From positions 1-48,160 of the forward strand of contig CALQBK020000013.1 in NCBI GenBank assembly GCA_943328795.2: a DNA stretch of 48,160 bases, written 5' to 3'. Both the position numbers and the translations under genes were made by a program. Each line of letters starts with the position of its first letter. Positions within the stretch are counted from its first letter, which is position 1. Source of the DNA: Bifidobacterium breve. Its GTDB lineage: Bacteria; Myxococcota_A; UBA796; SXON01. Under the pieces are notes generated by a model. That model did no database searches and was not told the DNA's origin. It saw nothing but the letters and a program-made list of their open reading frames with translations. This document shows positions 17,970 to 20,849 of the stretch, in pieces.

Positions 17970-18989
17970 ATGTCTCGATGGATGATCAACGCCAGCGGAC
18001 ACCAGTTCAGCGCCGCCACCATCGATGAGCTCAAGAAGCTCGCGAAGGAAGGCAAGTTTTCGGCTGGCGACATCCTGCAGCCCCCGGGCGCCGCGGAGTG
18101 GATCTACGCCGTGGAGCTGCCGGAGCTGAAGACCGTGCTTCGCGAAGATGCCGACGTTGCGCCTGCATCTACCGAGCTCTCGCCGGTGATCCGTTGGGGC
18201 CTCGCCGGGGCGTTGGCGATCGCGGCAGTAGGCTGCTGGGTGTACGCCTACGGGCTCTCCCAGGACATGCCCCAGCCGGAAGACCTGGAGCTGATCGGCG
18301 GCAAGAGCGGCTTGTCGTACACTGAGGTGCTCGTCACGGCAGACCCCGCACCGCTCTACGCGAGCGAAGGCGGCGGGTCTCAAGTCGGGACGCTCCTGAA
18401 GAACTCGAAGGCCGACCTGCTCGGGAAGCGCGGGGATTGGTACCACCTCAAGGGCAACGGGGCCGAGGGCTACGCGCGGATCACCGACGTCATCCCGGCG
18501 TATTTCTTCGCCGACGGGCCGACGCAGCTGCAGTACAAGCCGCTGTATTACCCGGACCAGTTCGTCACCGTGGTGAACAGCTCGTGGAGCCTGGTCCCGG
18601 AGAACGGGAACAAGAACATCACGAACTTCATCTTCATGATCGGCAACAACTCGACGTTCGGGATGACCGACGTGAAGCTGAAGGCCACGATCAAGGACAA
18701 GGACGGGAAGCAGCTGGAGGAGAAGGAAGTCGCCGTCGAAGGTGTGCTCAAGCCCAACAGCTCGACGATGATCGGCACGCTGAAGGCCGAGCCGCGCGAC
18801 AAGGCGGCGGTCGACCGCATCCTCACCGAGCAGCTGTTCACCGAGATGATGGCGACGGACCCGAAGATCGTGGACCGTTGGGTCGAAGGCGTCGACATCC
18901 GGCTCGAGAGCGAGGGCTTCGACGGCGCGCAGATCAGCGTCGCCGAGGTCCGCGCGATCCCGCCGGACGCGATGCCGCCCGCGCAGTAG
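17970..18989 (+). CDS. Single-TM protein with N-terminal GYF_2-like domain and C-terminal SH3-like/extracytoplasmic region
   Basis: 339 aa. MSRWMINASGHQFSAATIDELKKLAKEGKFSAGDILQPPGAAEWIYAVELPEL; TM GLAGALAIAAVGCWVYAYG; SH3-like LYASEGGGSQVGTLLKNSKADLLGKRGDWYHLKGNGAEGYARITDV. Confidence 0.7.
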   Translation: MSRWMINASGHQFSAATIDELKKLAKEGKFSAGDILQPPGAAEWIYAVELPELKTVLREDADVAPASTELSPVIRWGLAGALAIAAVGCWVYAYGLSQDMPQPEDLELIGGKSGLSYTEVLVTADPAPLYASEGGGSQVGTLLKNSKADLLGKRGDWYHLKGNGAEGYARITDVIPAYFFADGPTQLQYKPLYYPDQFVTVVNSSWSLVPENGNKNITNFIFMIGNNSTFGMTDVKLKATIKDKDGKQLEEKEVAVEGVLKPNSSTMIGTLKAEPRDKAAVDRILTEQLFTEMMATDPKIVDRWVEGVDIRLESEGFDGAQISVAEVRAIPPDAMPPAQ

Positions 18990-19059
18990 GGACCGGGGTG
19001 CGCGACTTCCAGGTCGCCCCCGTCGGCTCGAATTGAGAAACTGTCGGCGTTGTACCATG

Positions 19060-19075
19060 TGGCATAGCGCTTGCT
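19060..19075 (+). promoter_or_regulatory. Predicted sigma-54 (-24/-12) promoter
   Basis: TGGCATAGCGCTTGCT: GG and GC separated by exactly 10 nt, matching TGGCAY-N6-TTGCW. Confidence 0.65.
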
Positions 19076-19085
19076 TTAGTCCAGT

Positions 19086-19180
19086 TCGCCCCCTCTCGAC
19101 GATGTCTCTCGTGCCCTGACCCGCCGGGAGAGGATGCCAGCGGTGGCCGGTAATTTTGCCGGCCACCGCTGTTTGTTTTT
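19086..19180 (+). ncRNA. Candidate sigma-54-dependent small RNA (about 95 nt)
   Basis: Non-coding segment between a -24/-12 promoter match and a perfect intrinsic terminator. Internal pairing CCTCTC...GAGAGG encloses ACGA-TGTCTC-TCGT. No plausible ORF. Confidence 0.5.
19138..19180 (+). terminator. Strong rho-independent terminator
   Basis: CAGCGGTGGCCGG (19138-19150)-TAATTTTG-CCGGCCACCGCTG (19159-19171), perfect 13-bp stem, followed by TTTGTTTTT. Confidence 0.92.
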
Positions 19181-19211: not shown

Positions 19212-20849
19212 CTACGCCCTCAGCGCCCGAATGGCTGCCGCGAGCTCCGCGGGCTCCGCCGTCGGGCGCGCGCAGGCAGACCCGGAGCAGGCCATCGCCT
19301 TCCCGTCGGGTACACCCTCGCGCACGCCCACCCAGGTGCACTCGGGGTGCGGCTCGCCGAGGCCTTGGAGCAACAGCGGAGGCAGGGGCCAGCCGGGGCT
19401 CGCCACCTTGATCACGACGCGTCGCGCGGCCCGGCGCTCGGCGGCCTGCGCGGCCGGCGCTGCGAAGAACCCCCAGTCGTCGCTCTCGGCGAGCGCGGCG
19501 GCGGCGGCTTCGTCGGCGCGCGCCGGCCACGGGCCCCCCACCAGGTCCCCCAGCGTGCCGGCCACCTTCGCGAACGCCGCGTTCCCGTGCACGTTTCGGC
19601 GCACGTGCCGCAGCCGTCCAGCCACGCCCGGCGCCCTGTCCCACAGCCCGCCGTCCTCGACCTTGAGCTGCGCCCACGCCCACCCGAGCACCCCCGCGGC
19701 CCGCTCGAACCACGCCGGCTCGGCGAGCGCGCGTCCGACCGCGACAAAGCCCTCCGCGACGTGCACCTGGTCCTCGAGCAGCCCCGCGACCCCGCCGACG
19801 TGGCGCGTCACCCGGCCGTCCGCGTCCACCAGGGTGCACAGGTGCTCGACGACGCCGCGGGCGACGCCCACCAGCCCTGGCCGGCCCAGCGCGCCCGCGG
19901 TCGCCACGAGCGCCGAGGCGGCGAGCCCGTTCCACCCGGCGTACACCGTGCGGTCGACGGCCGGGCCGTCTACGCCGCTGCCCCGGCCGCGGTGACCCCG
20001 GCCGAGCGCGTAGTACCCTTCGTCTGCGTCCTGGCTGCCGAAGAACGCGCCCGTAGCTGGGTCGTACAGCGTCGCGAGCAGCCACTGGATGGCCGTGTCC
20101 AGCGTCGCGAGGGCGGTCGCCGCCGCCGGCCCGCCGGGGCCCGCCGCGCGTGCGTAGACGGCCAGCAGGCGCGCGTGGTCCTCGAGCAGCTTCTCGTAGT
20201 GCGGCGCCGTCCAGTCGTCCTGGGTCGCATAGCGAAAAAAGCCCCCCTCCACCGGGTCGTACATGCCCTTCGTGGCCATCGCGACCAGCGTCTTCCCGAG
20301 CGCGTCGTGGCTCCACGTGTCCCCGCGGGCGGCGCGGTCCGCGAGCCACTCCAGCACGCCCGGGTGCGGGAACTTCTGCAGCTCGCCGAACCCCGCGTTG
20401 TACGGGTCCCACGCCTCTTGGACGCGCGCGAAGATATTGACCGGCACGATGGTCGACCGGGCGAGCTCAGGCGCTGGCTCCGGCGCGAGCGACCAGCGCG
20501 ACGTGGGGTCTGACGCGCTCCTGAGCAGCGCGTGCAGCTCGGGTCCGGGGACATAGGTCCGGCCGATCAGGACCTCCCCCGCGGCGTCGAGCACCGCGAA
20601 GGTGGGCCACCCGCCTTGGTTGTAGCGCTCGTTGAGGTCCGGTCGGCGGTCCGTGTCCACGCGGATGCACACAAACCGCTCGGCCATCAGCGCGCTCACG
20701 CCGCCCCAGGTGTAGCTGCCCTCGTCCATCACGTGGCACCAGTGGCACCAGGTCGCGCCGATGTGCAGCGCGATGGGCTTCCCCTCGGCGCGCGCGCGCT
20801 CGAACGCGGCGTCCGACCACTCCTCCCAGGGGATCTCGGCGCTAGACAA
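19212..20849 (-). CDS. Thioredoxin-domain-containing protein (DUF255 / YyaL / SPATA20-like)
   Basis: 545 aa. LHIGATWCHWCHVMDEGSYTWGGVSALMAERFVCIRVDTDRRPDLNERYNQGGWPTFAVLDAAGEVL, then a glycosidase-like helical domain. Confidence 0.85.
   Translation of the reverse strand: MSSAEIPWEEWSDAAFERARAEGKPIALHIGATWCHWCHVMDEGSYTWGGVSALMAERFVCIRVDTDRRPDLNERYNQGGWPTFAVLDAAGEVLIGRTYVPGPELHALLRSASDPTSRWSLAPEPAPELARSTIVPVNIFARVQEAWDPYNAGFGELQKFPHPGVLEWLADRAARGDTWSHDALGKTLVAMATKGMYDPVEGGFFRYATQDDWTAPHYEKLLEDHARLLAVYARAAGPGGPAAATALATLDTAIQWLLATLYDPATGAFFGSQDADEGYYALGRGHRGRGSGVDGPAVDRTVYAGWNGLAASALVATAGALGRPGLVGVARGVVEHLCTLVDADGRVTRHVGGVAGLLEDQVHVAEGFVAVGRALAEPAWFERAAGVLGWAWAQLKVEDGGLWDRAPGVAGRLRHVRRNVHGNAAFAKVAGTLGDLVGGPWPARADEAAAAALAESDDWGFFAAPAAQAAERRAARRVVIKVASPGWPLPPLLLQGLGEPHPECTWVGVREGVPDGKAMACSGSACARPTAEPAELAAAIRALRA

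Follow-up and report, generated by a model that had tools for sequence, protein, structure and literature searches.

The stretch at 19002-19180 of the window (the whole 48,160 nt of DNA analysed here) lies between two convergent protein genes, and the question that it raises is whether it holds a small RNA (sRNA) gene of its own. An earlier reading of the letters alone (the sequence-only reading) had proposed a sigma-54-dependent sRNA gene with its own terminator, either a distant relative of Pxr of Myxococcus xanthus or a new family. There is now strong support for the first part of this claim: 5 of 5 congeners, and members across the order, share promoter, upstream site, loop core and terminator as a set, and the unit relocates and inverts as a whole. 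There is little doubt, in our view, that this is a conserved sigma-54 sRNA gene. We also consider it probable that the gene is autonomous, belongs to a new, clade-restricted family, is activated through sigma-54 and acts in trans as an antisense RNA.

Architecture of the sRNA unit

The unit joins a palindromic enhancer-like site, a -24/-12 element, a hairpin that displays GUGCCCUGACCC and, at its end, a 15-bp terminator within 19002-19180 (Table 1). The sigma-54 promoter had been recognised from the start and is confirmed in the sequence: on both strands of the 48-kb window, the stretch at 19060-19077 is the sole match to the consensus GGCAY-N5-TTGC, with GG-N10-GC spacing. The start (+1) expected near 19086 agrees with the position of the -12 element; both this start and the length of about 95 nt are predictions from the promoter spacing and the T-tract. 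Two components had gone unnoticed, namely that the unit starts further upstream, with the palindrome GCGACTTCCAGGTCGC, and that conservation within the RNA is highest at GTGCCCTGACCC.

The terminator stem (CAGCGGTGGCCGG/CCGGCCACCGCTG, 19138-19171) forms the perfect 13 bp described before and can be extended to 15 bp, the loop then being 4 nt, with TTTGTTTTT after it. It is by far the top one of three terminator-like matches in 10 kb. Folding of the 97-nt RNA gave -47.9 kcal/mol versus -30.6 +/- 3.1 for shuffled sequences (z = -5.6, much of it due to the terminator), and the suggested pairing of CCTCTC with GAGAGG is borne out by the minimum-energy fold. Tested alone in single members, the window among them, the 5' stem does not differ significantly from shuffles. 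The C-run that had been pointed out near the 5' end is indeed present, but its conservation does not extend outside the genus. A short ATG frame in the window (ATGTCTCTCGTGCCCTGA) was considered as a leader peptide and rejected; it is missing from the congeners G003 and G004.

Table 1. Coordinates of the sRNA unit and of its flanking genes in the window.
Feature	Position	Strand	Basis
Palindromic enhancer-like site GCGACTTCCAGGTCGC (CGAC-N6-GTCG), putative sigma-54 activator site	19002..19017	+	
Sigma-54 -24/-12 promoter TGGCATAGCGCTTGCTTT	19060..19077	+	Consensus match; same in all aligned members
Predicted sRNA, ~95 nt, both ends predicted	19086..19180	+	Promoter spacing and T-tract; covariance model R1 match 19084-19180
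5' hairpin; outer arms ~19091-19098 / 19126-19134	19091..19134	+	Fold; stems of relatives complementary despite unrelated stem sequence
Core GTGCCCTGACCC, candidate seed, shown in the hairpin loop	19111..19122	+	Conservation
Intrinsic terminator, 15-bp stem then TTTGTTTTT	19138..19180	+	Terminator search; compensatory stem changes within the genus
Upstream protein gene, weak SH3_3 domain (GYF/SH3-type), unrelated neighbour, synteny anchor	17970..18989	+	
Downstream convergent gene, DUF255/thioredoxin-domain protein	19212..20849	-	

Conservation and rearrangement within the genus

Of 98 relatives, 71 have an orthologue of the upstream gene. In three congeners (G001, G003 and G004) the sRNA element again follows the stop codon of this gene, but on the opposite strand, and in a fourth (G002) it is missing from this place, the same contig having it at a distance of about 43 kb. 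An element that changes strand or place in this way is not the 3'UTR of the neighbouring gene, and its occurrence on the opposite strand at the same place in three congeners indicates that the unit is independent of that gene. When the window (19002-19180) is compared with the corresponding loci L004, L006 and L007, the unit appears inverted in place, with a short CCGGGG/CCCCGG as a possible flanking repeat. As to G002, the ~43 kb between the upstream gene and the sRNA (G002:C31, L005 and L095) contain flagellar-type genes, which by eye we take to be FliA-like and hook-like. Gene and sRNA adjoin in the other congeners, which suggests that a flagellar cluster was gained or lost between them.

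The blocks kept in the genus alignment are the upstream palindrome, a second block AACT-CCGGCGTT, the -24/-12 element, the core GTGCCCTGACCCGGCGG, GGCCAGCG and the terminator loop, while the paired positions of the terminator stem show compensatory changes. A covariance model (R1) built from the RNA alone, with the promoter left out, matched 5/5 congeners with E values of 6e-9 to 7e-17. The sequence-only reading had proposed to compare the corresponding regions of relatives and held that a lack of conservation would speak against the gene; the regions are conserved.

Distribution across the order

The same RNA-only model produced weak matches in G015 and G018, members of another genus, both preceded by textbook sigma-54 promoters. 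Weak matches in G062, G096 and G017 had no promoter and were rejected. Patterns combining promoter and core were found in 14 of 67 genomes in one search and 14 of 66 in another, with none for the reversed-pattern controls. Altogether, the sRNA is present in 21 of about 66 genomes of the order, from families f1, f2, f4 and f6 (G000-G004, G006, G011, G013, G015, G016, G018-G021, G023, G029, G032, G038, G040, G051 and G055), a count made of the pattern matches plus G020 and minus a chance match in G053 (L074), rejected as apparently coding and devoid of a terminator. Variant cores appeared in four further genomes (G010, G012, G027 and G036), and two genomes of family f5 (G030 and G039) have an inverted unit in which promoter, hairpin and terminator are all present. 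No sRNA was seen in family f3, and the order does include genomes that lack it.

Outside the order there were zero matches among 386 genomes of the phylum. A scan of 85,488 species returned 19 matches, ten of them in metagenome-assembled genomes (MAGs) of the clade of the window; the other nine, in unrelated bacteria, all fell within long ORFs and had no T-run, and were discarded as chance matches. Rfam 15 recognised no family in the window at gathering score, and lax scans none in ten relatives, the top lax match of the window (E = 0.05) being dominated by the terminator. The hosts are probably an order of myxobacterial lake bacteria; the isolate names of several named relatives point to lakes as their source. 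One public MAG (MaH-04nov19-8) titled Klebsiella pneumoniae includes a contig (CAMAWH010000062.1, L089) identical to G006:C62, with a dnaK-sRNA-groESL locus. This contig is a member of the window's own family, and the title of the MAG is apparently wrong.

A variable stem with an invariant loop

The 5' hairpin stem is unrelated in sequence between genera, with its complementarity kept and up to 16 consecutive pairs (G015, G016). The 5' and 3' arms of the same member pair better than arms swapped among members: 0 of 20,000 permutations reach the observed value, a figure that relatedness can inflate, and the fairer comparison with about one member per genus gives 36 of 20,000. The core CCGTGCCCTGAC, which was also used in the pattern searches, does not vary among seven aligned members from other genera. 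An invariant exposed loop carried by a freely varying stem is what would be expected of an antisense seed, or of a loop bound by a protein.

The dnaK-groESL gap

In other genera the sRNA is located between the divergent dnaK-dnaJ and groES-groEL genes, on the groESL strand (GroES and DnaJ were identified by Pfam, while the neighbours that we take to be DnaK and GroEL were recognised from their sequence). A TTGAC-type promoter-like sequence is conserved between the sRNA terminator and groES, and it is still found before groESL in the genus of the window, where groESL has another location and no sRNA beside it. Since this arrangement is spread over families, we infer that the gap is the ancestral position of the sRNA. 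Inversion of the unit has taken place on at least two occasions: one is seen when the window is set against its congeners, the other, independent of it, in f5, in the dnaK-groES gap of genus g15 (L189, L190).

Putative enhancer site and sigma-54 regulon

The palindrome CGAC-N6-GTCG is the putative binding site of a sigma-54 activator. It occurs, with at least 7 of 8 positions matching, some 60 bp ahead of the -24 GG in 17 of 21 aligned members versus 3% of shuffles, and in G040 it sits about 20 bp further upstream, a displacement of two helical turns. A search of 66 genomes for the palindrome suitably spaced before -24/-12 elements gave 93 matches, versus 8 for the reversed pattern. The tightest of these sites have the sequence CGACAnnnnTGTCGCGATC; in most cases an ORF encoding an exported protein begins some 10-60 nt further on. 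A simple regular expression detected a lipobox-like motif in 33 of 46 ORFs behind the enhancer site, and one such ORF contains a VWA domain (Pfam). Examples of this regulon (L139, L204, L219, L229 and L243) are exported proteins or lipoproteins, mostly without an annotated function, some of them VWA or beta-propeller-like. The genome has 14 strong matches to PF00158, the domain of sigma-54 activators, 12 of which carry a GAFTGA-type motif. A heat-shock (HsfA-like) activator was considered and rejected, as the genes behind the enhancer site are mainly those of exported lipoproteins and not heat-shock genes.

Search for targets

The exact complement of the 12-nt core occurs only once in the G001 genome outside the sRNA, and it ends 20 nt before the start of groES (L171, G001:C186:20750-20761). 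Its position is suggestive of a target site. It could also be a remnant of an inverted sRNA, because the other strand has GTGCCCTGACCCG...GGCCAGCG at this place. The exact site is missing from the groES leaders of the four other congeners, which have at most the bulged GGGTCCAGGGG. No core complement was detected in dnaK leaders or in lipoprotein leaders, and the duplex energies of the whole 5' region with groES leaders did not stand out from background.

Mode of action and alternatives

In the model that we favour, a sigma-54 enhancer-binding protein would bind the palindrome and activate RNA polymerase-sigma-54 at the -24/-12 element, and the transcript would stop at its own terminator. The RNA would then consist of the 5' hairpin, whose loop displays GUGCCCUGACCC, and after it the terminator hairpin with a U-tail, and would most likely act by pairing of the loop core with target mRNAs in trans. 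It would be induced jointly with the exported-lipoprotein regulon that has the same enhancer site.

An unlikely alternative is that the RNA is real and driven by sigma-54 and acts by binding a protein, as a decoy or sponge in the manner of CrcZ and GlmY, the invariant loop being the protein site. The combination of invariant loop and freely varying stem would fit this as well, and so would the failure to find a conserved mRNA complement in the groES, dnaK and lipoprotein leaders. However, the core is one long non-repetitive sequence, and known sponge RNAs carry repeated motifs. If pairing with mRNA is retained as the mode of action, a more specific proposal can be made, which we regard as rather improbable: throughout the order the sRNA might link a sigma-54 envelope response involving lipoproteins to chaperone supply by pairing with groESL mRNA, and in the genus of the window it might now be a free-standing trans regulator of the operon that it formerly adjoined.

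The arrangement in most genera, with the unit directly upstream of groES on the same strand and a terminator at its end, would also suit a sigma-54-dependent leader or attenuator of groESL at the ancestral locus, with no separate sRNA. This is very unlikely, and already contradicted in the genus of the window, where the whole unit is far from groESL and still conserved. The inversion in G030 and G039 and the TTGAC-type sequence separating the terminator from groES argue in the same direction.

A kinship with Pxr is harder still to sustain. Pxr is a 108-nt RNA encoded downstream of nla19/pxrR and activated by the response regulator PxrR (PMC5568312, PMC10217877). Both RNAs are about 100 nt long and have a predicted sigma-54 promoter, stem-loops and a terminator; a C-rich 5' region and the probably myxobacterial host of the window could be added in favour of a distant relationship. 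Their sequences differ, though, and Pxr has three hairpins versus two in the window sRNA. The published Pxr probe CCCCACCCCTTCAGCACTTCCGG, which the window sRNA does not resemble in sequence, was found, allowing 2 mismatches, in 0 of 386 phylum genomes, the order included, a result that is weak for the sample (no positive control matched) and valid for this genome. Rfam offered no match either. Pxr is placed between nla19/pxrR and an NADH dehydrogenase gene (PMC5568312), while the new family is found between dnaK and groESL or free-standing, as in the window with its GYF/SH3-type and DUF255 neighbours. Of the two options in the sequence-only reading, a new family is thus the better one. The least credible reading is a 3'UTR and terminator of the 17970-18989 gene with a sigma-54 match by chance, as the position in the window directly past that stop codon and on the same strand might suggest, given that the promoter is conserved and that the element lies on the opposite strand to that gene in three congeners and elsewhere in other genera.

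Relation to known sRNAs

The preferred reading, a trans-acting sRNA under sigma-54, describes a new family of a known kind, without a match to any described RNA family. Like it, the Qrr sRNAs of Vibrio have a transcription unit of their own and a sigma-54 promoter that is preceded by palindromic sites for an activator (LuxO, SypG; PMC10162802); there is no sequence relation, and activator and targets are known for Qrr. GlmY of enterobacteria is likewise a sigma-54 sRNA, whose two-component enhancer-binding protein is tied to the cell envelope (PMC7073468). It is unlike the window sRNA in sequence, and its role is that of a RapZ decoy. The envelope sRNAs MicA, RybB and MicL depend on sigma-E and are co-regulated with envelope genes; the window sRNA resembles them in its apparent co-regulation with an envelope regulon and differs in the sigma factor. 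CrcZ and CrcY of Pseudomonas are sigma-54-dependent sRNAs, as the window sRNA appears to be. CrcZ acts through repeated A-rich motifs, none of which was seen in the window sRNA. It sequesters Hfq (PMC4063720). By analogy, the gene would work like the sigma-54 sRNA genes Pxr, Qrr and GlmY, with no common sequence or locus detected.

Characterised sRNAs are few in myxobacteria and their relatives, and the present one has been kept through much of an order. That the intact unit was repeatedly inverted and moved is a natural demonstration of the autonomy of the gene. With a promoter, an enhancer and a candidate seed that can be tested exactly, a home among chaperone genes and an enhancer in common with a lipoprotein regulon, it makes RNA-based control in uncultured lake bacteria experimentally approachable.
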